A stretch of DNA of 40,284 nucleotides from a virus. The position numbers and the translations under genes were made by a program. The stretch is taken from positions 1 to 40,284 of the IMG/VR virus record IMGVR_UViG_3300030329_004322, one strand, 5' to 3'. The first letter of the stretch is position 1, and every line of letters begins with the position of its first letter. Below the pieces are notes generated by a model. That model had not been told where the DNA came from, did not search any database, and worked only from the letters and a program-made list of their open reading frames with translations. Shown piece by piece: positions 1-37,134 of the stretch.

Positions 1-93
1 GCCTGGGCGGTTATCCAGGAACACAGGAACGGACCCCAGGTCGAATCGCTCGGCTGGCGAGGGGTCGCACAGACACAAAGGAGGCTCACAATA
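1..93 (+). repeat. Structured leader repeat, copy A (5' truncated by the window edge)
   Basis: This is the first of five copies of a leader placed directly before small genes. The window starts inside it, at the GCCTGG loop of the proposed pseudoknot, so the 5' strand of helix P1 is missing. It matches the copy at 35848-35937 base for base for about the first 75 bases. The bulged hairpin is intact: outer pairing GACC/GGTC, inner CCA/TGG and GTCGA/TCGGC. It ends in the Shine-Dalgarno sequence AAAGGAGG followed by CTCACA and the start of the 94-330 gene. A contig beginning exactly inside a repeat may reflect an assembly break. Confidence 0.85.
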
Positions 94-2828: not shown

Positions 2829-4007
2829 ATGATGACCGCCAAGTACGCACAGAGCTACTGGAACAAAGCAAACGAAGCCATCGCCCACCTGTCCCCGCTC
2901 GTTCCGGAGCGCGAAGAGGTTTTGCACACTTCCTTCCTCGCACTCGGGACTGGAAAAAACCATTTCCAGATCTCGCCACCGGGGTCCGGAAAGACCTACC
3001 TCGCTGAGATCATCGCAAGGGGGATCGTTGACGCCGACGTATTCTACAAGCTGTTGAGCAAGTCGATCCCGATAGACGAGGTGCTTGGACCCACCAGCCT
3101 CCAGGGCATCAAGATGGAGGACTACCGCCGAGCCATTGACGGCTTCCTGCCCACAGCCCACATCGCGATACTGGATGAAGTTTACAAGGCGGGCGATGCG
3201 CTTTGCAATCCTCTTCTGCGGATGATGAACGAGCGGAAGTACCGCAACGGGAGAACCGTTCTCGACGTTCCGCTCGTTTCCGTATTCGGGATGGCCAATG
3301 AGATGTACGAGGGCCCGGCGCTTGCAGCGTTCGACTCCCGGTGGACATTCAAACACCGCCTCGACTACCTGTCCGACAAGAGTTCGTTCGGCGCGATGAT
3401 CGACGCGACCCGCGAAGGACGGGTGCCCGACATCACATTCCTCGGCATCACGCTGGACGAGATCCACGCAGCACAGACAGAGCTACGGAACGTCGCGTGG
3501 GCCGAAGGCTGCACGGATATTCTCTGGCAGTTGCGCGAGGAGTTCCGGCAGGAGGGGCTTCCGTTCGATGATCGCAAGGCCGTCTGGGTAGCGCGTGACG
3601 TTCTCCCGGCAGAGGCTATGCTTCAAGGGCGCGACTACGTCGACGCGGAGGACTTCGCAATCCTCCAGCATGTATTGTGGTCGGACCCAGACCACATTGA
3701 TCGGGTCCGAGCCATCATCCTCAAGATCGCGAACCCACTACAAGATCAGGCCGACCGCCATGTCAAGTCTGCGCGGGATGCATTCAAAGCCGCGCAGAAG
3801 GTCGTTGCCGAATCTCCTGGCGACGAAGCGGTCCGTATTGCGGCATCCGCTGACGCACGGGTCGAGGTTAGTGACATTCTGAGCACACTCGAACAGATGG
3901 GCAATGGCACCCAGGGCAAGTCGCAGGCGATATGTGCCGCCGCCATAAAGAAGGTCGAGCGCATCGACGAGCGAGTCATTCGTGAAATCCTCCGCATAAG
4001 GGATTAA
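2829..4007 (+). CDS. MoxR-family AAA+ ATPase, RavA-like
   Basis: A 392-aa AAA+ ATPase of the MoxR/RavA type, a chaperone-like remodelling motor. Visible motifs: Walker A PPGSGKT (50-56), Walker B IAILDEV (112-118), sensor 1 in FGMAN (153-157) and a likely arginine finger in FDSRW (R171). The segment from the GPTSLQGIK stretch through GFLPTAHIAILDEVYKAG to NERKYRNG follows E. coli RavA closely in order and wording. The C-terminal 180 residues are helical. The start is ATG 2829 or 2832 behind AAAAGGACAG. The VWA partner follows after 2 bases, the usual MoxR-VWA pairing. What it remodels in this phage is unknown. Confidence 0.93.
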   Translation: MMTAKYAQSYWNKANEAIAHLSPLVPEREEVLHTSFLALGTGKNHFQISPPGSGKTYLAEIIARGIVDADVFYKLLSKSIPIDEVLGPTSLQGIKMEDYRRAIDGFLPTAHIAILDEVYKAGDALCNPLLRMMNERKYRNGRTVLDVPLVSVFGMANEMYEGPALAAFDSRWTFKHRLDYLSDKSSFGAMIDATREGRVPDITFLGITLDEIHAAQTELRNVAWAEGCTDILWQLREEFRQEGLPFDDRKAVWVARDVLPAEAMLQGRDYVDAEDFAILQHVLWSDPDHIDRVRAIILKIANPLQDQADRHVKSARDAFKAAQKVVAESPGDEAVRIAASADARVEVSDILSTLEQMGNGTQGKSQAICAAAIKKVERIDERVIREILRIRD

Positions 4008-4009
4008 TC

Positions 4010-5686
4010 ATGGCGAAAAAAGGGATGATCCAAAGAGCGTTCAGTTTCTTCGGCAAGGGCGGGGTGGCAAAGAAGGCCCCCCCGCGCCTTGCCGAATACC
4101 AGAGAGAGAAATCAAAGCGCTTTGATATACGCGACGATAAACGATACATCATCGACTCTTCCGAGTTCAGTCGGCAGGACTTTAAATTCCTGGAGCTACG
4201 TGCTCCCGAACTGACCCGCCTCGGGATAGATGGCGCAAGAATCCTGCCGCACTTCCGGGAGTTGCAAGTCGACGGGTGGGAATGGTTCTATCGTGGAGCA
4301 CCGAGAACAAAGGAGCGCGGCGAATATTACGCGGACTTTAATCCGCACGACACGGTGCTTTCGCTGATGGGGGGGATGGCAGAGTATCGGTCGCTCCGAG
4401 GCAAGACCATTCGGAACAAGCTAACCTCTCTGATCGCAACGAAGAAGCTGAACGACATTCTCAATAGTCTCCCCGAGCAGGTCGTGCGGTCGATAGCCTC
4501 CGCACAGCAGTCAGGGGAAGACGCGCGGCAGGCCGGAAAGAGGCTTAAGACGTTTCGGCGTATGTGGGAGGAAGCCGACGAGGCCGGGAACGAGGAGAAG
4601 AAGCAGCAACTTGAAGCGATGGGCCATGAGCTTGCGGAACTGGAGGAAGATTCAAGGGAAGAGGCCGAGGCCAATGCACAGAAGGCAGCGGAGGCAATGC
4701 GAGACAACGAGGACGAGATCCGTGATGCCCTGCGCCAGTGTCTGTCCGAAGCCGAAGAGGCGGCAGCGGCAACGCAGGCGACGATGGACACTCTCTCGTT
4801 CGGCCGAGGCCCCGGTGTGAGTCGAAAGCTGAACGAAGAGATGCTCATCGAGATGTCAGAGCAGATCGAGAACGACCAGAATCTCCAGGACATTGCGAAG
4901 CTTGCGGGTCGCATCAAGCAGATCATTGCCCGCAAATCACAACAGCGCGACCGCACCGATTATGGTGAAGTCATCGACACAGAACTCGGCAGCGATGTGT
5001 CTCGAATGGTTGGCCCCGAGTTAGCGATGCTGGCCGATGAAGACCTTGGCCTGGACCTTGTGCGGCGGCTCTACGACGAGCAGGCAACGGTCTGGACGAA
5101 GGAGTCGCAAGAGTCTCTCGGGCGTGGGCCTATCGTCTGCGCCGTAGACTGCTCCGGGTCGATGGGCGGAAAACGGATTTGCTGGGCCAAAGCGATCGCC
5201 TGTGCGCTGTACAGGGTATGCAAGGAACGAAAGCAGCCGTTCAAAATGATCCAGTACAGCGGCAGCGTTTATGCGAAGACATTCAGCCACGGTGGAGAAG
5301 ACGATGCAGAGTTTATGAAAATGCTCCAGCACTTCGAGGGAGGTGGGACATATTACGAAACCGCGTGGGCGGAAATCATCAAGACGTTTGACGAGGAACG
5401 GGAGATGGCGAAAGCTGATGTGGTATTTATCAGCGACGAGATGTTCCCGGTTGGTCAGTTCCCGAACGAGCTACGGCGGTTCAACGAGGCGCTCGTAGAC
5501 GCCAGGGCCAAGTGCTTCGGCATCAGCGTGACGGGCCGCAGAAAATACTACGGCGAATCAGAGAACTCCGTGGTGGGTGCTTTCCAGCACTTCTGCCATT
5601 CGTCGTGGGGAATCAACCCGCACCTCGACAATGACAACGACCAAGCCTGTATCGAAGAACTCTTTGTCGGCAACCTCGAAGCGTAA
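4010..5686 (+). CDS. VWA-domain protein, ViaA-like partner of the MoxR ATPase
   Basis: A 558-aa protein with a C-terminal von Willebrand A domain. The MIDAS metal site is visible as DCSGS (D380, S382, S384), with GGGT (T447) and a later acidic ISDE (D476). The N-terminal 160 residues are globular and basic at the start. Residues 165-255 form a long Glu/Ala/Lys-rich coiled coil. The segment before the VWA domain (SDVSRMVGPELAML through LDLVRRLYDEQ) has the same layout as E. coli ViaA. It probably binds the ATPase through the VWA domain and recruits a client. The start is 2 bases after the ATPase stop. The next gene is separated by a 178-nt structured spacer. Confidence 0.92.
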   Translation: MAKKGMIQRAFSFFGKGGVAKKAPPRLAEYQREKSKRFDIRDDKRYIIDSSEFSRQDFKFLELRAPELTRLGIDGARILPHFRELQVDGWEWFYRGAPRTKERGEYYADFNPHDTVLSLMGGMAEYRSLRGKTIRNKLTSLIATKKLNDILNSLPEQVVRSIASAQQSGEDARQAGKRLKTFRRMWEEADEAGNEEKKQQLEAMGHELAELEEDSREEAEANAQKAAEAMRDNEDEIRDALRQCLSEAEEAAAATQATMDTLSFGRGPGVSRKLNEEMLIEMSEQIENDQNLQDIAKLAGRIKQIIARKSQQRDRTDYGEVIDTELGSDVSRMVGPELAMLADEDLGLDLVRRLYDEQATVWTKESQESLGRGPIVCAVDCSGSMGGKRICWAKAIACALYRVCKERKQPFKMIQYSGSVYAKTFSHGGEDDAEFMKMLQHFEGGGTYYETAWAEIIKTFDEEREMAKADVVFISDEMFPVGQFPNELRRFNEALVDARAKCFGISVTGRRKYYGESENSVVGAFQHFCHSSWGINPHLDNDNDQACIEELFVGNLEA

Positions 5687-6893: not shown

Positions 6894-7158
6894 GTGGTGG
6901 CTGCGTCGCCGCCTCGGAGGGATCTTCGGCGGCATATGGTGGGCGATTCAAAGGGAGAGGCTCGGCTTGATGCTTGCCCAGGCCAACCTGACCCCCGGCA
7001 AAACGATAGACGGTGCAGAAGACAAGATCAAGGCACTGATCGCAGCAGAGCACATCTGTCCAACGTGTAGATATTTCGACGGCACATGCCTGTTCGGTCT
7101 GGACGCCAACGTAGACAAGGTCATCAAGTGCGCTGAATTTAACCGGAGGGATCAATGA
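6877..7158 (+). CDS. Hypothetical Cys-rich (possible zinc-binding) protein
   Basis: A 93-aa protein with GTG start 6877 behind AAGGAGG. The N-terminus is strongly basic and aromatic (KSIRKWWLRRRLGG), then IWWAIQRERLGLMLAQ could be an amphipathic membrane-surface helix. The C-terminal half holds CPTCRYFDGTC followed by a further Cys near the end (IKCAEF), four cysteines in a zinc-knuckle-like spacing. Function unknown. It is coupled to the next gene by an ATGA overlap. Confidence 0.6.
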   Translation: MKSIRKWWLRRRLGGIFGGIWWAIQRERLGLMLAQANLTPGKTIDGAEDKIKALIAAEHICPTCRYFDGTCLFGLDANVDKVIKCAEFNRRDQ

Positions 7159-8006: not shown

Positions 8007-8345
8007 TCCCCACAACCACATACGGCCCCATAGGGGCGTTTTGGTGGACGATCTGCCCGAACTGTAGCTAACCATATAGGCTTAGTGATCGGCCGTGAGA
8101 GGGCCTTAAAATGCGCGGCAGGGGTAAAGGCCAGTGCTTGCGGGGGTGTTACAGGAGGGGGTCGGCCGGATTCCTGCGACGACGACGTCCAGGCCCGATC
8201 GGATAACCATTCAGCAATAATCGCATTCGGGTTTCAACGTCAGGAACAGAACGGCAAAAAGGAGGGCTGCATAGGAACCGAATGCGTGGCTCGTTTTTCT
8301 ACCGGTAGGAGCCGGTAGAACGCTGCACGGCCACCCTCCCCGTGA
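8007..8345. other. Convergent intergenic region without a supported gene
   Basis: About 340 bases between the plus-strand terminators and the end of the minus-strand lysis gene. A plus-strand frame at 8085-8318 has no ribosome site and reads like random sequence. The only clear structure is a 7-bp hairpin, CTACCGG/CCGGTAG at 8299-8318. On the minus strand it is followed by A rather than T residues, so it is not a normal terminator for the late transcript. No convincing tRNA or promoter was found. Confidence 0.5.
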
Positions 8346-8759
8346 CTAATACAGGAACGCGACCTCGTCGTCTTTGTCTGGGTCGATGTCAACGTGGAGG
8401 AATTTCTCGTGAATGCCTATGCGGCGAATGCCAGATTTCATCAGGCAGGAGAGAAGCCGATAGCGGTCACGGGATGTGGCGCACTGGAGGTCCACGGCCA
8501 CAGACGTTTCTTGACGCCCACCCGTCCAGCCGTTGCCGTCAACTTCCCGATCCTTTACGAGGTGGCTCGAAGTTGGCGACCCTCCCTCCTTCTTGTTGTG
8601 TTCCACGCAACGACAGCCGCTATTGATCTTGATGCCGCGCCCGAAAGCATCGCGAGTTAACTGGAGGCGTTCCACCAGGTCTGGGGAGATGCGATCTTCT
8701 CCGCATCCACAGCGGCAAGCAAACTCCGACTTCGAAAAGTTAGGTGTCATATCACCCAC
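8346..8759 (-). CDS. M15-type zinc peptidase endolysin
   Basis: A 137-aa peptidase of the M15 (D-Ala-D-Ala carboxypeptidase or L-Ala-D-Glu endopeptidase) fold, which cuts peptidoglycan cross-links at lysis. The N-terminus SKSEFACRCGCG is typical of this family. Zinc ligands fit SSH (H66), AVDL (D90) and LHVD (H122), with D124 nearby, and INSGCRC is the usual substrate-loop motif. GTG 8759 follows AAAGGAATCCGAA at good spacing; the in-frame ATG 8750 is too far from it. There is no signal peptide, so release would need a holin. It lies at the end of the late block beside small membrane proteins, a lysis cassette. Confidence 0.9.
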   Translation of the reverse strand: MGDMTPNFSKSEFACRCGCGEDRISPDLVERLQLTRDAFGRGIKINSGCRCVEHNKKEGGSPTSSHLVKDREVDGNGWTGGRQETSVAVDLQCATSRDRYRLLSCLMKSGIRRIGIHEKFLHVDIDPDKDDEVAFLY

Positions 8760-10141: not shown

Positions 10142-12245
10142 TGTTCCTCCCCTTCTCCAAATACCGAAGCCCCGACTGAAGCTCGGATGCCATCGGGAAG
10201 TTTTTGATCTCGTCTGCGGGGACGTGCCTCTCAATCAGATGGGCAAGCCAGCAGAAATTTTGAAATGCCATATCCCATGAGAACTTCACGCCCTTCTGTA
10301 AATTCAGGAACCGGTGACCGGGAATCTCACCTTCCCCCGGCTTCTCTGCTGCCGTGACGATCCCCCGCGCTTCCAGTGCATCGACCAATTCGGGAGCGTG
10401 AATCTGGTAGCCTGCGAGAACCCCGCCAGACTCTACAGCCCGTTGCGTGGTCAGGGAGCGCCCAGAGATGGCGTCAGGGAGATCATCGAGGGAATCTGCC
10501 CATGACGTGTCTGAGGCGTGTACCGTGCCATCGCCCTTAAACACCACTCGGGTCGTGGAGCCATTCGCGATTGTCAGAATATTGCCCGTAGACCCCGCCC
10601 CCTGCCACGACGCGCCCCCGTCCGTGACGTTGCCTTCGATGTCCACAACGCCCTGCGACCCTGTGGTGTCGTCCGTGGCTGCCGCCTCCGCAATGAATCC
10701 TCGGAGATGCAAGGCCCCAGAAGCAACGGAGTTTGGGTCCCTGACGCCGGTAATCTGCAACCCGCCAGCATCGGCTTGTGCCTTGCCGACAGCCCCAAAT
10801 ATCGTTGGATCTGCAAGGTCCCCGAAGCCATGCCCAACGTCACTACTCTCAAATGTCAGGGCGAAGTTGTCGTTGGTGTTCTGGTCAATCTGCACACCCT
10901 GAGTCTGGTCATTGTTAAGGGAGCCTCCCCCCGTAATTAGCACGCTTCCGTCGAACGTCAGGTTTGCCTCACCCTGAATAGCATCTGCGCCCGTGACGGT
11001 AGTGATCCAGTTATCCGTGCTGCCTGTTAGCGCCGTACCAGACGAAAGCGCAGACCCTGCCACGCTAAACGCCTTCCCAGACGCAAGATCGAGTCCACCA
11101 TCATCGAAGGTTCCAATCTCCGCATCGTCTACATAGAATGCGATCTTGCCGTGGTCGCCAGTTCCACTGGCCGTCTTGCTCGTAAACCGCACCTCTTCTG
11201 CCGTCTTGTTCGACCCGCCATTGAGGACCGCGATTTCCAGCGCCTCGGCAGACCCTGTGCCCATCTTCATTGTCACGTCGGCGTTATTGTTGTCGTCGTA
11301 GAGCGTCATGTCGCCTGCCGTGATGCTCAGAGCGCCCGTGCCCGTAGACAGGTTTATGTCCCCACCAGACGTGACCGTAAGATCGGTGTCGTCTCCTTCA
11401 ATCTTCTCACCGCTGCCAAAGGTAATGCCCACGTTGGCGGGAACGACGACATCCGCCGTTGCCGTGAGGTTGATGTTGTTTCCGGAGATCGTAAGGTCCG
11501 TGCCGTCACCCTCAATTTTCTCGGCATCATTCCCGAAGGTCACACCTACATCGGCGGGTATGTTCACGTCGCCTGTGGCGGTCAGGTTGAGGTCACCGCT
11601 TGACGCGACTGTGAGGTCGGTTCCGTTGCCCTCGATCTTCTCGGCAGCATCACCGAACGTGATTCCCACATTCGCTGGGACGACCACGTCCGCCACCGCC
11701 GTCAGCTTTATATTGTTTCCGCTGATCGTCAGGTCAGTGCCGTCGCCCTCAATTTTTTCGGCAGCATCGCCAAACGTCAACCCTATGTTGGCGGGAATCA
11801 CGACATCGCCACTGGCACACGTCAGGTTTATGTTCCGTCCGGAATTTATCGTCAAGTCCGTGCCGTCAGATGACAGGTGCTCACCGCCACCAGCATCGTT
11901 GAGGTATAGCTGTGCGGCACCAGCCAGGACGAGGTCGTCGGTGCTTTCATCCCACAACATATATGCCCCGGAAGTAGCACCGAATAATTGGACGTCATAG
12001 CCCGTCCCGTCCACGCCCACCGTCAGAGTGTTCGACAACTGCGTGGTGCCCGTATGTGTCTGATTTCCGGTCCACGTCTGATTGACGTTCAGCACGCCAA
12101 TGCCGTCTGCCGAGGTGCTGTCTACATTGTCACGGTCCACCTGCCCTGACAGGAGCGTACTCAGAGACGACGGGTTTGCATTCCAGTTTGCTGCCGTGGG
12201 GACTTGCCCCGCGACGAATGTGTAGTTCTGGTTCCAGACCGCCAC
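10125..12245 (-). CDS. Tail fibre or receptor-binding protein with tandem repeats
   Basis: A 706-aa protein with GTG start 12245 behind AGGAGGCAATAA. Residues 1-110 form a conserved-looking N-terminus (AVWNQNYTFVAGQVPTAANW). About residues 110-290 hold four to five tandem units of 39-40 residues, each with the core VGITFGDAAEKIEGDGTDLT followed by a beta strand and VVVPAN. This is the pattern of trimeric fibre shafts. A variable Gly/Thr/Asp-rich region follows. The C-terminal 110 residues become charged and helical (HRFLNLQKGVKF, ERHVPADEIKNF) and may be a trimerisation or tip domain. It lies at the end of the structural genes, before lysis. The host receptor cannot be inferred. Confidence 0.75.
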   Translation of the reverse strand: MAVWNQNYTFVAGQVPTAANWNANPSSLSTLLSGQVDRDNVDSTSADGIGVLNVNQTWTGNQTHTGTTQLSNTLTVGVDGTGYDVQLFGATSGAYMLWDESTDDLVLAGAAQLYLNDAGGGEHLSSDGTDLTINSGRNINLTCASGDVVIPANIGLTFGDAAEKIEGDGTDLTISGNNIKLTAVADVVVPANVGITFGDAAEKIEGNGTDLTVASSGDLNLTATGDVNIPADVGVTFGNDAEKIEGDGTDLTISGNNINLTATADVVVPANVGITFGSGEKIEGDDTDLTVTSGGDINLSTGTGALSITAGDMTLYDDNNNADVTMKMGTGSAEALEIAVLNGGSNKTAEEVRFTSKTASGTGDHGKIAFYVDDAEIGTFDDGGLDLASGKAFSVAGSALSSGTALTGSTDNWITTVTGADAIQGEANLTFDGSVLITGGGSLNNDQTQGVQIDQNTNDNFALTFESSDVGHGFGDLADPTIFGAVGKAQADAGGLQITGVRDPNSVASGALHLRGFIAEAAATDDTTGSQGVVDIEGNVTDGGASWQGAGSTGNILTIANGSTTRVVFKGDGTVHASDTSWADSLDDLPDAISGRSLTTQRAVESGGVLAGYQIHAPELVDALEARGIVTAAEKPGEGEIPGHRFLNLQKGVKFSWDMAFQNFCWLAHLIERHVPADEIKNFPMASELQSGLRYLEKGRNNGSHL

Positions 12246-16026: not shown

Positions 16027-17226
16027 CTAAGGGTTTACGGACAATGCGCTATCGATCTGCTTTTCCGTGAGCCCGTGATCCCCAAGCTCCTTGCGGAGCT
16101 CCTGTTCCCGTAATTCCTTGTTTTTCAGTATGTTCTCCCGGGTTTCTCGCCTGCGATGCACTCCTGGAACTTCGGAGTAAACTACTCCGAGCCCTTCAGG
16201 GCCTCCGTGCAATGCCGACCTCCCAAGGTATTCAGTGACCCCTTCAAACATGCGCTGACCTTCAAACGCGATAATCTGACCTGCGGTTATAGTTCCTCTT
16301 TCGAGCGCGAATGCGTAATACCTTAGACGAAGACCAGCGGGCAGTTGGCGAATTTCTTCAGGAACCGCCGGACTTGACTCCCCTTCTGTTGCGATGCGCT
16401 GAAACTCAGGCACGCGCTTGATGACTGCCGCCTGCTGTGCCGGCGTGAGCGCCGTAGCCCCGGTAAATGTTTCGAATGCTTTTTCGGCTCCACCATTCGC
16501 TATGTCTTTCTTGGCCCGGGCTACGGCGTCATCGATCGTTTTCTGATCCAGTATGGCCCCCCAATCGACCCACTCTGGCACATTGAAGAATGCCTGGTCG
16601 CCTCCTTGGGCAAGCAAGTTAGACAAGGCCCGAGCCTTAACCTCATCGACCGAAATTCTATCACCAAGGCGTGAGGCGTCGCTGCTTATCTGCCGCATCT
16701 CTTCCTGTAGCACCACACCAAAATCGCGCTTGCCAAGCTGGCGGGCCTCCCGCTCCAGCTTGTCACGTTCAAACCGTGCCTTCTGGGGGTCGATTCCCGC
16801 CGCCACGTCAGCGCCCGTTGTTCGCACCATCTCGAAGAAGTCTTCGCCCGTAGGATTTACATCTAAGAGCACCTGCCGCTGCAGCTGCTCCAGGTAATCC
16901 TGGCGTTTTCTCCTGTCGTCCTGCTCTTGATTGAAGCGCATCTCTTCGCGCTCGTCTCTGACAGCCTGACGCGCAAGCCCCCTGAGTTGTATCTGTGTAT
17001 TCTGGAGGTGGTTGATAAGCTCGACGTCGGCGTCACCGGCATTTAACAGAGCCTCTGCCAACTGCCGTGACCCCGCCTCCGGGTCCGGGTTGGAGGAGGC
17101 ACTCAGGGCGGCCTTGGCGAGTCGCTGGTTTGCCGTGCGCCTGTTGTGCGCGGTGTTTTGCTCTATACCCCGTGACGTTGCACGTCCGAGGTTTGCAAGT
17201 GTTGATAGGTTCAGTCCGAAAGCCAT
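16027..17226 (-). CDS. Probable internal virion protein
   Basis: A 399-aa, mostly helical, charged protein (DEREEMRFNQEQDDRRKRQD). ATG 17226 overlaps the previous stop (TAATG), which indicates coupling to the 780-aa protein. The extreme C-terminus, LGDHGLTEKQIDSAL, matches an internal segment of that neighbour (LRDHGLTEDQINQGF), including 23 nearly identical bases. No enzymatic motif is visible. Position between the nozzle-like protein and the transpeptidase suggests an ejected internal virion protein. Confidence 0.6.
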   Translation of the reverse strand: MAFGLNLSTLANLGRATSRGIEQNTAHNRRTANQRLAKAALSASSNPDPEAGSRQLAEALLNAGDADVELINHLQNTQIQLRGLARQAVRDEREEMRFNQEQDDRRKRQDYLEQLQRQVLLDVNPTGEDFFEMVRTTGADVAAGIDPQKARFERDKLEREARQLGKRDFGVVLQEEMRQISSDASRLGDRISVDEVKARALSNLLAQGGDQAFFNVPEWVDWGAILDQKTIDDAVARAKKDIANGGAEKAFETFTGATALTPAQQAAVIKRVPEFQRIATEGESSPAVPEEIRQLPAGLRLRYYAFALERGTITAGQIIAFEGQRMFEGVTEYLGRSALHGGPEGLGVVYSEVPGVHRRRETRENILKNKELREQELRKELGDHGLTEKQIDSALSVNP

Positions 17227-22110: not shown

Positions 22111-22700
22111 AATACGGCTGCTGCCGCCAGGGAAGCGTTATCTGCCTGTGGGGCCGTCAGGCGTGGCACATCACCGCGATCCTTGAAGGCTTCCATTGCC
22201 TCGGGCAGCATCTCCTGCGTCATGCGGATGTCATTGAGGTACGCCTGCTTGTAGAGGTATTCGGCGAGGTGGCCGTCCTGCGTGAGCGGACGTCCGTACT
22301 CCTCGGTGCCCATATACTCTGGCCCTCCCAAGCCGCCGTAGTTGGAGTATACCCAGTCGGGGCACTCCGGTGTCCACGGCACCATGTTCCCGTTTTCGTC
22401 TTCTACATCTTCGTGGGAGGCTCCTCCCGTGGCGTGAGCCACGCCCCTGACGATGTCATTTCCGGTGTTTATGTTCGTCTGCTTCAGTGTGGGGATGGCC
22501 CCCTGCGTCTTCGCCGCTGCCGTGACGGTGGCGAGATGGGCATCGTGGTTCTGCTGCTGCGCCGCCATCTTCTTTTCCATCCGCTTCTCGAAGGCTTCCA
22601 TGCGATGTTCGATTTCTGCCTCCGCCTCGGCCTTCCCTTCGGCTTTGATTTCGGCGTCCGTGCGGCGTCCGACGCGCTTCTCTTCTCTTGTGTCACTCAT
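22107..22700 (-). CDS. Coiled-coil virion-module protein
   Basis: A 197-aa protein. The frame is open to 23015, but ATG 22700 follows GGGAGTGCAAAG and gives MSDTREEKRVGRRTDAEIKA. The first 70 residues are a long charged helix rich in Ala, Glu, Lys and Gln. The second half is Gly/Asp-rich with PWTPECPDWVYSNYGGLGG, and ends in helix and poly-Ala. It lies between the decoration-like protein and the small gene before the adaptor. Function unknown; a minor capsid or internal protein is possible. Confidence 0.6.
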   Translation of the reverse strand: MSDTREEKRVGRRTDAEIKAEGKAEAEAEIEHRMEAFEKRMEKKMAAQQQNHDAHLATVTAAAKTQGAIPTLKQTNINTGNDIVRGVAHATGGASHEDVEDENGNMVPWTPECPDWVYSNYGGLGGPEYMGTEEYGRPLTQDGHLAEYLYKQAYLNDIRMTQEMLPEAMEAFKDRGDVPRLTAPQADNASLAAAAVL

Positions 22701-31448: not shown

Positions 31449-31547
31449 CCCCAACAGGGAACCGACAAAACCGACAAAAGCCCCTATAGGGAACCTATAA
31501 AACCTACAAAAGCCCCTTTTATAGGTTCTATAGGGTCCTTGTTGGGG
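31449..31547. repeat. Large interrupted inverted repeat near terL (candidate pac/cis site or bidirectional hairpin)
   Basis: Left arm 31482-31502 and right arm 31517-31535 pair over 19 bp (CCCTATAG and AACCTATAAAA with their complements), with a 2-base GG bulge and a 14-nt loop. An outer CCCCAACA/TGTTGGGG pairing (31449-31456 with 31540-31547) encloses it. Within it, ACCGACAAAAGCCCCT and ACCTACAAAAGCCCCT repeat directly about 35 bases apart. It is strikingly A/T-rich at its core for this genome. It lies between the coiled-coil gene and the late block. It could be a terminator region, a protein-binding site or a packaging signal. Confidence 0.65.
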
Positions 31548-33963: not shown

Positions 33964-34371
33964 ATGACTACCACACACGAAGAATACGAAAAGCGCGAGT
34001 CCAAGGCCTTCCACCAGCAGATGGCAAACACCAAGGCCGACCCATACCGGAAGGAAGGCGGGGAAGCTTTCACCCGAGCACTCACAGAATACCCCGAGGT
34101 CGTCGCAGAGCGCGCAGAGTGGGCGATTGACGGAAACTACGGATACGGGGCAATGCAGTATCTGCGCGGCCTGTGTGGGACACAGAACAGCAAGAGGGTG
34201 TGCCTGTTCTACACAATCGCTGGGCTCGAATGGCGCACATCCCCTTACTACGCAGGCAAGGCTTGGAAAACCCTAAACAAGAAACAGCAGACCCACATAA
34301 ACGGGTTGTTCGATACGATCCTAAACACTCCACGGTATGCCCTCGAACGTGTAGCCGGGGAGGTGGAGTGA
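33964..34371 (+). CDS. Hypothetical protein
   Basis: A 135-aa soluble protein behind GAGGAGGAAACC. It is helical, with Trp/Tyr-rich parts (EWAIDGNYGYGAMQYLRGLC, then CLFYTIAGLEWRTSPYYAG). It may form a compact helical domain. Function unknown. It overlaps the next gene by one base (TGATG), indicating coupling. Confidence 0.65.
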   Translation: MTTTHEEYEKRESKAFHQQMANTKADPYRKEGGEAFTRALTEYPEVVAERAEWAIDGNYGYGAMQYLRGLCGTQNSKRVCLFYTIAGLEWRTSPYYAGKAWKTLNKKQQTHINGLFDTILNTPRYALERVAGEVE

Positions 34372-34565
34372 TGACACGCAAGGAGAAACGACGGGTTCTG
34401 TCATTTTTGAATACCGCAGGGTACGAACTCGGAAACCTTGACGGTACAGAGGACTGGGGATGGGATGGGTGCGAACTTGCAAAAGTTCTCGCAAAATCTT
34501 GGGAAATCGACATGGACACATTACGAGACTATCCCGAAACCCTATTTGGAAAGGGGGATTTCTAA
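34371..34565 (+). CDS. Hypothetical small protein
   Basis: A 64-aa protein starting MTRKEKRRVLSFLNTAGYEL. ATG 34371 shares a base with the previous stop and follows GGGGAGGTGGAG. A basic first helix is followed by an acidic helix (DGCELAKVLAKSWEIDMDTL). It might be a small DNA- or protein-binding regulator, but no family is recognised. Confidence 0.6.
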   Translation: MTRKEKRRVLSFLNTAGYELGNLDGTEDWGWDGCELAKVLAKSWEIDMDTLRDYPETLFGKGDF

Positions 34566-34573
34566 AGGGGCCG

Positions 34574-34596
34574 TGTGGGGGCGGCAATCCCCCACA
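34574..34596 (+). other. Intergenic hairpin
   Basis: A perfect 8-bp stem, TGTGGGGG/CCCCCACA, with a 7-nt loop between the 34371 and 34646 genes. No T-tract follows. It is similar in placement to the hairpins at 341-359 and 771-790. Confidence 0.5.
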
Positions 34597-34645
34597 AACA
34601 GGAACGGCCAAGTCGTTTAGGCACACCACAAAAGAGAGGTTTCAG

Positions 34646-34915
34646 ATGGCCTTTTACGCGAACCACCTGCGCAGCCATGGGCAGGGCCCGCTGTATCAAT
34701 TCGGAATCGGAAAACAATATTACGGCCGGACAGTCCGACTGTCGCTTGGTGGGTATGCCTGGGGATGGCGCAAGTTTGGCCTCGGCAAGATGTCACTGTC
34801 CAAACGGGAATATGGCAATAAGGCTCTGTTTTTCGGCCCCTTCCGTGTGTTGAGATTCCCCAAGGTGTGCCATGTGGGATTTTGGCCCCTGACACTGACG
34901 TTTATTTGGAAGTGA
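34646..34915 (+). CDS. Hypothetical basic aromatic protein
   Basis: An 89-aa protein from ATG 34646 behind AAAGAGAGGTTTCAG. It is basic and rich in Gly, Tyr, Phe and Trp (LYQFGIGKQYYGRTVRLS, GGYAWGWRKFGLG), with a hydrophobic end (VCHVGFWPLTLTFIW). A small beta-barrel or membrane-associated protein is possible. Other frames over the same bases are open but lack a ribosome site. Confidence 0.55.
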   Translation: MAFYANHLRSHGQGPLYQFGIGKQYYGRTVRLSLGGYAWGWRKFGLGKMSLSKREYGNKALFFGPFRVLRFPKVCHVGFWPLTLTFIWK

Positions 34916-34944
34916 ACACACCAACAACAGAAAGGGACCACACG

Positions 34945-35136
34945 ATGACACGCGACCAAGACGGAAACCCCGTCCACAAAAACATCGAACCGGACACAAG
35001 GACCGGATGGCGCGTCACCGTCTGGTTCGGCACCGACCCGGCGACCGATATCCGACGTTACGTATACCTCACCCGCGCCCAGGCTCGACGGGCTGACATC
35101 AGCGACGACATCGGCATACACGGCCGCATCGGCTGA
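34945..35136 (+). CDS. Hypothetical small protein
   Basis: A 63-aa protein. ATG 34945 follows AAAGGGACCACACG, closely matching the leader of the 829 gene; the frame is open further upstream without a start site. The core WRVTVWFGTDPATDIRRYVY is a predicted beta hairpin followed by a helix (RAQARRADISDDI). Its stop is followed at once by leader repeat copy B. Confidence 0.6.
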   Translation: MTRDQDGNPVHKNIEPDTRTGWRVTVWFGTDPATDIRRYVYLTRAQARRADISDDIGIHGRIG

Positions 35137-35237
35137 CCGCTCCACCCGGCCTGGCGGGTTATCCAGGAACACAGGAAGGGTTCCCAGGTCGAATCGATCG
35201 GCTGGCGAGGGAGCACAGACACAAAGGAGGCAGCGCG
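35137..35237 (+). repeat. Structured leader repeat, copy B
   Basis: It fills the gap between two genes. Proposed H-type pseudoknot: P1 ACCCG/CGGGT enclosing loop GCCTGG, whose CCTGG pairs with CCAGG just downstream. Next comes the bulged hairpin: outer GTTC/GAGC (one G-U pair), CCA/TGG, then GTCGA pairing with TCGGC. The 3' end carries AAAGGAGG. P1 differs from copies D and E, and the outer stem from copies A and D, but pairing is kept. Confidence 0.85.
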
Positions 35238-35444
35238 ATGATGATCCTCGACATCGAAGACGGTCGCTTCATTCTCTATGATCACGACGACGGCAAGACG
35301 ACATTCGATTCCCCCGAAGAAGTTAATTCGTGGCTGGCGAAGCAGGGCGCCGGGTCAGTCATGTGCTCGTCCAGCATTGACTTCCCTGAAGAGGAAGGGA
35401 TGACACACATCGAAGTGGACGTTGCACTCGGGAGTTACTTCTGA
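35238..35444 (+). CDS. Hypothetical small acidic protein behind leader copy B
   Basis: A 68-aa acidic protein that begins with two ATG codons; the first is 10 bases after AAAGGAGG. It reads MMILDIEDGRFILYDHDDGK, then TTFDSPEEVNSWLAKQGAG. The beta-start and the SPEEVNSWL helix suggest a small alpha/beta fold. Function unknown. It is a member of the leader-linked cassette series. Confidence 0.65.
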   Translation: MMILDIEDGRFILYDHDDGKTTFDSPEEVNSWLAKQGAGSVMCSSSIDFPEEEGMTHIEVDVALGSYF

Positions 35445-35547
35445 CCGCTCCACCCGGCCTGGCGGGTTACCCAGGCAAACAGGAAGGGTTCCCAGGTCGA
35501 ATCGCTCGGCTGGCGAGGGAGCAACAGAGACACACAGGAGGCTCACA
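35445..35547 (+). repeat. Structured leader repeat, copy C
   Basis: P1 is ACCCG/CGGGT as in copy B, and the pseudoknot pairing CCTGG/CCAGG is kept although flanking bases vary (TTACCCAGGCAAAC instead of TTATCCAGGAACAC). The outer hairpin stem is GTTC/GAGC, and the inner GTCGA/TCGGC is conserved. It ends in CAGGAGGCTCACA and the ATG of the next gene. Confidence 0.85.
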
Positions 35548-35835
35548 ATGACACACTACGTTGTCTACTTCGTTACCCCGCGAGCGAACGGTCTTCCCGA
35601 CGTTTGGACGCTGTCCCGTCCGTACGGTGCCCCTGCGGCCTACGACAGCCTGTCCGATGCCGAGGATGCCGCTCGCGAGTGCGCCGCTGCTTGGCCGAAG
35701 GGTTACGTAGACCGCGAGTGGGCTGTCGTTCGTCAGGTGTCGGAGGAATTTGAGGAGGCGCGGTTCATCCCGAACCCCGACAACCAAGACCACCCGAACC
35801 GAAAGTTCGTTAACTCGCGAACGAGTCGGATCTGA
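35548..35835 (+). CDS. Hypothetical protein behind leader copy C
   Basis: A 95-aa protein from ATG 35548, 8 bases after the leader's AGGAGG. The start MTHYVVYFVTPRANGLPDVW and the later AARECAAAWPKGYVDREWAV suggest an alternating beta-alpha fold with an acidic helix and a disordered polar tail. Small early phage proteins with this composition are often host-takeover factors, but there is no specific evidence here. Confidence 0.65.
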   Translation: MTHYVVYFVTPRANGLPDVWTLSRPYGAPAAYDSLSDAEDAARECAAAWPKGYVDREWAVVRQVSEEFEEARFIPNPDNQDHPNRKFVNSRTSRI

Positions 35836-35937
35836 CTCGACTCCCGCGCCTGGGCGGTTATCCAGGAACACAGGAACGGACCCCAGGTCGAATCGCTCGG
35901 CTGGCGAGGGGTCGCACAGACACACAGGAGGCTCACG
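35836..35937 (+). repeat. Structured leader repeat, copy D
   Basis: P1 CCGC/GCGG (35844-35847 with 35854-35857) encloses GCCTGG; CCTGG (35849-35853) pairs with CCAGG (35862-35866). The second domain has outer GACC/GGTC (35879-35882 with 35910-35913), CCA/TGG, one bulged G, and GTCGA/TCGGC with loop ATCGC. AGGAGGCTCACG precedes the ATG. It is nearly identical to copy A. Confidence 0.87.
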
Positions 35938-36135
35938 ATGACAGACAACCAAGCGGAACGGCTCATGGACAGGTTCGATGAAGGCGTGGACGGCCTGTTA
36001 CGGCACTTGGGAAACAAAAAATATAACGAGGGGGAGGCCGCTCTAATGTGCCTCATAGCGGCTCTGAGCCTACACCAAAGCGACGAGTCATTTAAGCAAT
36101 CTGTCAAAGACCTTTTGAGAAACCTCGACAGCTAA
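35938..36135 (+). CDS. Hypothetical helical protein behind leader copy D
   Basis: A 65-aa mostly helical protein (MTDNQAERLMDRFDEGVDGL, then GEAALMCLIAALSLHQSDE). It may form a helical bundle or dimer. Function unknown. A short AAGGAGGCTCACA site, the 3' end of the leader alone, follows its stop and serves the next gene at 36147. Confidence 0.65.
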   Translation: MTDNQAERLMDRFDEGVDGLLRHLGNKKYNEGEAALMCLIAALSLHQSDESFKQSVKDLLRNLDS

Positions 36136-36146
36136 GGAGGCTCACA

Positions 36147-36503
36147 GTGACACGCGCAAGAATCAAATACGACGTCCGCACAGACAAATACGAAGCAACA
36201 GAGACGAACGCCACGCTCGTCCCCGAGATCACCGAGGGCAGCAAGCAGCTCTTCATCGAGCTTGCCGAAGACGCAGGCAACTGGTCCGGCAGTCCCCTCT
36301 TCGGTGCCAACGTCGGCGGCGACGACGTTTCCAGGGGTCACCTCACTCACCTCAAGAAGCTCGGTCTGGTCACCACCTACGTAGACGAAGACGACCCGAG
36401 CGGCTCAAGATTCAGGCGCGATGCCTGGGTCATCTTCACCGACCTGGGTGTCCGCTACGCAGAGGAACTCGGCATCGACTACCTCCGCGACGAGATTTGC
36501 TGA
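36147..36503 (+). CDS. Possible winged-helix DNA-binding protein
   Basis: A 118-aa protein with GTG start 36147 behind AAGGAGGCTCACA. From about residue 28 it reads like a winged helix: SKQLFIELAEDAGNW, a Gly-rich turn, RGHLTHLKKLGLVTTYVDED (recognition helix and first wing strand), then WVIFTDLGVRYAEELGI. MarR- and similar regulators share this pattern, but the match is only by shape. It would suit a phage transcription regulator in this early arm. Confidence 0.55.
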   Translation: MTRARIKYDVRTDKYEATETNATLVPEITEGSKQLFIELAEDAGNWSGSPLFGANVGGDDVSRGHLTHLKKLGLVTTYVDEDDPSGSRFRRDAWVIFTDLGVRYAEELGIDYLRDEIC

Positions 36504-36606
36504 TCGCTCCACCGCGCCTGGGCGGTTATCCAGGCACACAGGAACGGCTCCCAGGCACACCGAGTGCTGGCGAGGGAGCGCAGAGAATATCATCGGGAGA
36601 AACGAC
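36504..36606 (+). repeat. Structured leader repeat, copy E (most divergent)
   Basis: P1 is ACCGC/GCGGT with the same GCCTGG loop, and CCTGG/CCAGG is conserved. The second domain has outer GCTC/GAGC and inner GCAC/GTGC with loop ACCGA, which replaces GTCGA/TCGGC of the other copies; both stems pair perfectly. After the hairpin the sequence diverges and the ribosome site is CGGGAGAAACGAC instead of AGGAGGCTCACA. Confidence 0.83.
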
Positions 36607-37134
36607 ATGAAAGACCACATCTCCGAAAACATCTCCGCCGTGATCGGGCGCAATTGCGAAGATCCTGCTATCGACCGATACGATTGGGCGGAGTACTGGC
36701 CCGTAGTGGACGAGCATCTACGGGTGATCGATGTTCTGGACTCCGACGGCTCGACCAACCACGTATTGGCCGACGTGCGAGACGGGGAGCTGGCCGTATA
36801 CGACGGCGCGTGTGAGGTGCTCGTCTCTGTCGATCTGGCGATCTCCAGGGGTTTTGGTCCGTATCTCATTTCGGAACACGGATGCCTAATCGCAGCCGCA
36901 GTGGCCGGGAGGCAGGTCGGTCGGGCGATTGCCAAGGACGCACTGTCGCTGCTCGAGGTCGAGGGCGACTCCGAGCTGCTCAGGTGGACGGGGATAGAAA
37001 TAGACGACGGGGACGCCCTGCTTTCAGCGGGACTCTCGCCGTACACGCCCCAATGGGAGGCGGCCGAGTGGGCTGCGCGTGACGAGTTCTACCGATTCAT
37101 CGCACGGCCAGCCCCCAACAACGTGACCGACTGA
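36607..37134 (+). CDS. Hypothetical protein behind leader copy E
   Basis: A 175-aa acidic protein from ATG 36607 behind CGGGAGAAACGAC. It contains Asp-rich segments (DAIDRYDWAEYWP-like start, RVIDVLDSDGSTNHVLADVR) and a helical middle (HGCLIAAAVAGRQVGRAIAK). No membrane segment long enough for insertion and no known domain were recognised. It ends the leader-linked series; a promoter follows. Confidence 0.65.
   Translation: MKDHISENISAVIGRNCEDPAIDRYDWAEYWPVVDEHLRVIDVLDSDGSTNHVLADVRDGELAVYDGACEVLVSVDLAISRGFGPYLISEHGCLIAAAVAGRQVGRAIAKDALSLLEVEGDSELLRWTGIEIDDGDALLSAGLSPYTPQWEAAEWAARDEFYRFIARPAPNNVTD

Follow-up and report, generated by a model that had tools for sequence, protein, structure and literature searches.

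A repeated leader of about 70 bases in an uncultivated phage contig: a candidate folded RNA family located upstream of unrelated phage genes

Introduction

The question raised by this locus is what kind of element recurs between small genes of a virus contig, and by what means it could act on the gene that follows it. The source record, IMG/VR record IMGVR_UViG_3300030329_004322, is an uncultivated virus contig of 40,284 bases, which was analyzed at its full length and is referred to here as the window. It encodes a MoxR-like ATPase and a distant terminase (top tblastn identity 40%), while searches of annotated phages by megablast with the first 20 kb of the contig, and by blastn with one of the leaders (copy B, see below), returned no match. 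A sequence-only reading of the window had described five copies of a structured leader, each encompassing a compact H-type pseudoknot and placed in front of unrelated genes, and had suggested that it could be a ligand- or protein-sensing riboregulator or a translation-boosting leader used as a cassette. The comparative analysis presented here indicates that these repeats are genuine and correspond to an RNA of about 70 bases, with a predicted fold, that had not been catalogued before.

Results

Copies of the leader in the window and construction of covariance models

All five copies (A to E) were found at the positions given for them, and a variant sixth copy (F) was recovered in the same window. 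The description of each copy as lying between a stop codon and the next gene applies to copies B, C, D and E, which extend from the stop codon of one gene as far as the start codon of the following one, whereas the upstream side of copy A is lost at the contig start. A covariance model built from the five window copies (R1), as the earlier reading had proposed, was run on contigs fetched by means of degenerate DNA patterns and led to homologues in other phage contigs. Most of the pattern matches represented noise, and a few scored 34-46 bits with R1 against a background below 20. The consensus shared by the true matches was then used to sharpen the patterns, and a second model (R2) was derived from 32 sequences. 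True copies mostly exceed 25 bits with R1 and 49 bits with R2, the background being below 20. The features of the window are as follows, with scores referring to R2 and with P1 to P4 denoting the helices described in the next sections.

1-93, plus strand: copy A, 5' end lost at the contig start; model match 1-66; 58.0 bits; leader of a 78-aa ORF (94-330); 98% identical to copy D
34563-34645, plus strand: copy F, variant and sixth in the window; 27.7 bits, E 3.6e-6; downstream gene 34646-34915
34563-34565, plus strand: stop codon of copy F
34570-34573 with 34582-34585, plus strand: P1 of copy F (GCCG with CGGC)
34575-34581 with 34589-34595, plus strand: P2 of copy F (GTGGGGG with CCCCCAC)
Linker of copy F, plus strand: AAACAGGAACG
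35137-35237, plus strand: copy B; downstream gene 35238-35444
35138-35143, plus strand: extra upstream strand (CGCTCC in copy B), complementary to the 3' strand of P3, with equivalents in copies C, D and E
35144-35148 with 35155-35159, plus strand: P1 of copy B
35150-35154 with 35163-35167, plus strand: P2 of copy B
35168-35179, plus strand: linker of copy B
35180-35185 with 35209-35214, plus strand: P3 of copy B
35186-35187 (AG) and 35203-35208 (UGGCGA), plus strand: internal loop of copy B
35188-35192 with 35198-35202, plus strand: P4 of copy B
35445-35547, plus strand: copy C, leading gene 35548-35835; 70.4 bits; P2 extended to 6 bp (GCCTGG/CCAGGC)
35836-35937, plus strand: copy D, leading gene 35938-36135; 69.3 bits; P1 CCGC/GCGG, P3 GACCCC/GGGGTC
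36504-36606, plus strand: copy E, leading gene 36607-37134; 76.3 bits, the highest among the window copies; P1 ACCGC/GCGGT, P3 GCTCCC/GGGAGC, P4 GCAC/GTGC

In copy F, P1, P2 and the linker are intact and the P3/P4 core is gone, a short GCC/GGC hairpin being found in its place. A weak match of 9.8 bits at 8326-8385, without P2 and the loop, was judged to be due to chance.

The extra upstream strand can pair with the 3' strand of P3 over 5-6 bp in all four complete window copies, and covaries with it in copy D; a helix competing with P3 is thus possible in this phage only. As a trait of the family this helix was rejected, since the one significant test is driven by the window copies (p of 0.058 with the window included and 0.22 with the window excluded). 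It is a speculation that, in the window phage, a ribosome finishing the upstream gene would cover the competing strand and so couple the leader to upstream translation.

Compensatory changes in the helices

Selection for RNA structure, which had been proposed from the five copies, can be recognized in these copies alone: pairing is retained in 99% of their pair cells, and the nine doubly changed cells, as compared to 4.2 expected, are matched by none of 500 shuffles. In the final alignment (A7), which comprises the 44 distinct copies that R2 retrieved from the records used for it and which is fitted to the model and hence biased towards it, 92.4% of cells are paired and 175 double (compensatory) changes are observed versus 47.8 upon shuffling. 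When the pairing partner is slid by one to three bases as a control, pairing in A7 falls to 29-50%. The same result is obtained with the alignment from which R2 was built (A6, 32 sequences), which was generated with MAFFT and is not structure-fitted: 89.0% of cells are paired, with 115 double changes versus 33.0 upon shuffling. The homologues consequently covary, rather than vary freely, at the bases proposed to pair.

P2 consists of 4-8 bp, P3 of 6 bp, and P4 is short with a variable loop, while P1 is formed by the loop of P2 pairing with the strand immediately upstream. A hairpin loop thereby pairs with a flanking strand across short connecting loops, which corresponds to an H-type pseudoknot as had been claimed. 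P2 covaries strongly, and P1 can be formed in 30 of 42 distinct copies, compared to a mean of 19.1 and a maximum of 27 in 2000 shuffles. The P1 variants reported for the window were all confirmed (ACCCG/CGGGT in copies B and C, and those listed above for copies D and E), and the P1 pairs found include ACCCG/CGGGU, AACCG/CGGUU, CAACG/CGUUG, CGCG/CGCG and CGCU/AGCG. P1 is not universal: with the short loops permitted, roughly one copy in four has none that is convincing. The downstream CCAGG, presented earlier as invariant, is so inside this window but not in relatives, where P2 covaries freely.

Minimum-energy folding of single copies did not pick this fold, z-scores being near 0 for most copies, and the median pair probability of P3 in folding calculations is 0.19. 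The evidence for the predicted fold is comparative and not thermodynamic in nature.

In several copies of one phage group (L263, L265, L271, L338, L370, L381 and L417), a small hairpin GUCC...GGAC is located upstream of P1 and starts near the stop codon, representing an optional extra helix.

The conserved core

Pairing in the second domain exists as described earlier but its inner layout had to be revised: the domain consists of the continuous 6-bp stem P3, an asymmetric internal loop AG/UGGCRA and the variable hairpin P4. The earlier layout contained a CCA/TGG stem with a bulged G, which the alignment does not support in that form. This stem is untestable by covariation because it is built on invariant bases, and its sole variable pair (the same variable position pairing with G96) fits 36 of 44 copies; P3 pair 71-101 explains this position better, 38 of the 44 copies retaining it in the form of C-G, U-A, G-C and U-G.

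Near-invariant bases comprise the linker between the two domains (AWACAGGAANG), the CAG preceding P4 and the UGGCRAG following P4, with a constant spacing between linker and CAG in nearly all copies. Position G62 of the linker is changed to U in four of the five copies in which pair 71-101 is broken, versus two of the 39 others, which on these few sequences may hint at a tertiary contact between linker and P3. Binding of the linker by a CsrA-type protein was rejected because five copies carry ACAGUAA instead of ACAGGA.

Distribution among phages

The family encompasses more than 40 distinct copies on approximately 30 uncultivated phage contigs, which range from ~4.5 to 208 kb and represent ten or more groups that share hardly any proteins, or none. 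Searches of whole records revealed one to three copies in most carriers, the window having six. An all-against-all blastp comparison combined with cluster HMMs, a grouping method of limited sensitivity from which distant families could escape, identified no protein family shared by more than three of the ten phage groups; a fast-evolving small phage protein could have eluded this comparison.

In cellular genomes, R2 retrieved the element from one of 395 genomes of one phylum and from none in four other phyla (0/299, 0/296, 0/299 and 0/297), in a search of ~1,590 genomes that scored the best candidates per genome and included a known-positive control only in the first set. The contig holding the single match also encodes portal, capsid, primase and exonuclease proteins, and the match is therefore phage-borne. 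A pattern scan of ~85,000 bacterial and archaeal species genomes yielded 24 stretches, among which only that phage contig was confirmed. The element is essentially absent from the ~1,590 cellular genomes.

At the gathering score, Rfam 15 produced no match in the window or in six homologous loci, and permissive Rfam searches produced chance matches only. Nucleotide BLAST of a homologue against annotated phages gave only three chance-level matches, and no description of the element was found in the open-access literature, to which the search was confined.

Contig 9 of genome G025 (JAQULO010000009.1), which has been binned into a Syntrophales MAG, is a phage of ~53 kb. A protein fragment at the end of this contig seems to resume at its start, which suggests a circular or permuted phage genome.

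Position relative to genes

For all listed copies with an assignable gene start, the element is carried by the coding strand of the next gene, and every listed copy is followed by a same-strand start with a Shine-Dalgarno-like sequence. Upstream of P2, a stop codon is usually found at a distance of 5-25 nt, which amounts to 12-13 nt in copies B-E of the window. From the end of P3 to the start codon, 8-32 nt are present in 38 of 41 copies, in two classes of ~12-15 and 19-32 nt; the short values of L365 and L388 may reflect the choice of a start codon preceding the true one, since a better Shine-Dalgarno sequence and ATG follow. The downstream Shine-Dalgarno sequences are strong and not visibly sequestered, and a conserved anti-Shine-Dalgarno strand was not found (p 0.49).

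In agreement with the earlier description, the downstream genes are small and unrelated, mostly without a Pfam or PHROG match; a DUF932 protein and a phosphoribosyltransferase-like protein are among the exceptions. Two related phages carry comparable leaders in front of different genes (G006, position 17176; G024, position 22202), and the leader is therefore a module independent of the gene, as had been envisaged by its description as a cassette. The window copies are situated between closely packed co-directional genes, and no sigma-70-like promoter was found in the 34300-36700 region, although the promoter type searched for may not be that of the host.

L354 (G007) carries two copies, at 4816-4891 and 7055-7130, which are ~2.2 kb apart and have near-identical downstream sequences. 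One copy leads a DUF932 gene while its counterpart is degenerate, which suggests a duplicated leader in decay.

Other features of the window

Two tandem 32-bp units (CCCCWAYAGGGAACC...AAAAG) are present at 31449-31512, in a divergent intergenic region that separates leftward structural genes from rightward early genes; these units look like operator sites. At 2829-5686 in a rightward region, a gene for a MoxR-like AAA ATPase (phrog_19600) is followed by one for a 558-aa protein (phrog_24053) with a weak match to an RNA-binding protein (phrog_850), representing an unusual pair. Several imperfect direct repeats of ~120 bp are found at 11374-11868 in the structural region, within a large gene that is carried by the minus strand and probably encodes a repetitive tail or fibre protein.

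Discussion

A leader that probably acts on the next gene

The sequence family, its helices, its strand and position, its spread among unrelated phages and its cellular rarity are established by comparison. Placed before assorted genes, the leaders probably set the expression level of the gene that follows them, and would do so without a viral protein. The tight arrangement of co-directional genes and the lack of a promoter-like site make control of transcription initiation unlikely and action on the transcript most likely, while the presence of up to six copies leading successive or nearly successive genes argues that genes are controlled individually and not together as an operon. Since no phage protein common to the carriers was found, a host partner or ligand is more likely, and a dedicated phage-encoded protein partner would be less likely.

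A tentative model, which we regard as plausible, is that of a cis-acting leader family that would contact a conserved host component and control the gene following each copy, most likely at translation initiation. On polycistronic phage transcripts, with a stop codon on one side and the next ribosome-binding site on the other, the ~70-nt element would fold into the H-type pseudoknot (P1/P2), the near-invariant linker and the P3/P4 hairpin with its AG/UGGCRA loop, and would act at the RNA level on the gene directly downstream. In the least certain part of this model, the folded element would abut the initiating ribosome on its upstream side, from which position we infer the ribosome to be the most likely partner; docking, most likely on the 30S ribosome or on a ribosome-associated protein, would then increase or gate translation of that gene without affecting its neighbours. 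The conservation of P3 in spite of its weak predicted pairing fits a fold that would be stabilised by a bound partner. Against this translation model, the downstream genes have strong Shine-Dalgarno sequences that are not visibly masked and that no conserved strand would cover, the spacing to the start codon is looser than expected of a fixed ribosome contact, and an intergenic processing or antitermination element would also be located there in a compact genome.

Alternative explanations

The foremost alternative is a riboswitch, in which linker and AG/UGGCRA pocket would bind a small molecule or ion that changes upon infection, thereby stabilising P3 and altering expression of the next gene. 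Its aptamer-like core with supported helices is present, a feature that is not specific to riboswitches: ~18-20 near-invariant nucleotides reside in linker and internal loop while the helices vary, folding of the weak P3 may need a partner, the G62 changes hint at a tertiary contact, and no phage protein common to the carriers was found. The downstream genes nevertheless show no metabolic theme or common pathway, no conserved expression platform in the form of anti-Shine-Dalgarno pairing was found, and metabolite riboswitches usually also occur in bacteria, whereas the ~1,590 cellular genomes hold no homologue outside a phage contig. We consider a riboswitch unlikely, if still worth keeping in mind.

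It is quite improbable that the element is a put-like antiterminator, a nascent RNA that would bind host RNA polymerase directly and allow read-through along the phage operon. The family resembles putRNA in size, in being phage-borne and in the lack of a common protein, but the best score of R2 on the whole HK022 genome is 6 bits, which is at chance level. Moreover, antitermination would not need copies between genes inside operons, up to six per region, and no promoter-like site was seen near the window copies, though the host promoter type may differ.

Doubtful to the same degree is an RNA processing or stability element, at which a nuclease would cut nearby and the pseudoknot or hairpin would shield the new 5' end, providing each gene with its own mRNA in the manner of the RNase III sites between T7 genes. 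Such an element would account for the intergenic position directly upstream of each gene, for several copies per operon and for a structured 5' end. P3 and P4 together amount to no more than ~8-11 bp, interrupted by a large internal loop, and P4 may comprise as few as ~3 bp, which is short for RNase III; a nuclease site would also require far less sequence conservation than is seen in linker and loop. R2 furthermore finds no match in T7.

A DNA-level element (a recombination boundary or single-stranded DNA hairpin) that shuffles gene cassettes would be consistent with similar leaders before different genes in related phages and with five close copies in one genome, yet it is very improbable considering the constant orientation to the assigned downstream gene, the position just before the ribosome-binding site, and covariation that is restricted to asymmetric RNA-type helices with a pseudoknot. 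A signal for stop-codon read-through, by analogy to retroviral gag-pol, would explain a pseudoknot closely following a stop codon, but is already contradicted and hardly conceivable, as many frames close within 1-14 codons and no useful extension would result.

Comparison with known systems

Various phage RNAs provide a frame for the leader that may act on translation. The leader of T4 gene 32 mRNA likewise contains an H-type pseudoknot, through which translation is controlled; it serves one gene, autoregulated by its own product, and has no conserved second hairpin, whereas the family described here precedes many unrelated genes, in phages for which no shared protein was found. The RNase III sites of phage T7 are several structured intergenic elements that each precede a gene, from which the present family differs in its shorter stems and in its conserved linker and loop.

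In Cluster K mycobacteriophages, the start-associated sequence (SAS) is repeated immediately upstream of many unrelated gene starts and has been proposed to function in translation initiation (PMC3203893). SAS is a 13-bp sequence (GGGATAGGAGCCC) next to the start codon, to which ESAS adds 17-bp inverted repeats (PMC3203893). The likeness resides in the position before many unrelated phage genes. Visual inspection shows some likeness between the SAS motif and part of the linker, but identity was rejected: R2 found no family member in TM4, Adephagia or Pixie, and the inverted repeats near the SAS sites of these phages are TTGACA-like and have no P3/P4 core.

The putRNA of phage HK022 is ~70 nt in length, contains two stem-loops and does not need a dedicated trans-acting protein (PMC9378689). 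The put sites suppress pausing and termination via the RNA polymerase beta' zinc-binding domain. Like putRNA, the present family consists of cis-acting phage RNAs of ~70 nt that have two structured domains and apparently need no phage protein. The two differ in their conserved core, with no convincing sequence or covariance match between them; moreover, putL and putR occur once each downstream of early promoters, whereas copies of the present family follow stop codons inside operons.

The family is a new RNA family within the known kind of phage cis-acting leader. We lean towards the opinion that it represents an undescribed class of phage RNA, a portable leader for whichever gene follows that could have spread among many unrelated phages because it needs no phage protein, and that would bind the 30S subunit, RNA polymerase or a small molecule. 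Its clear consensus, strong covariation, usable model and natural variants render a partner, be it ribosome, polymerase, nuclease or ligand, directly testable. Few phage-borne cis-acting RNAs are known that function in unrelated phages and need no protein of their own. The family could reveal a general phage means of tuning single genes inside long transcripts and could be of use as a portable expression module in phage biology.
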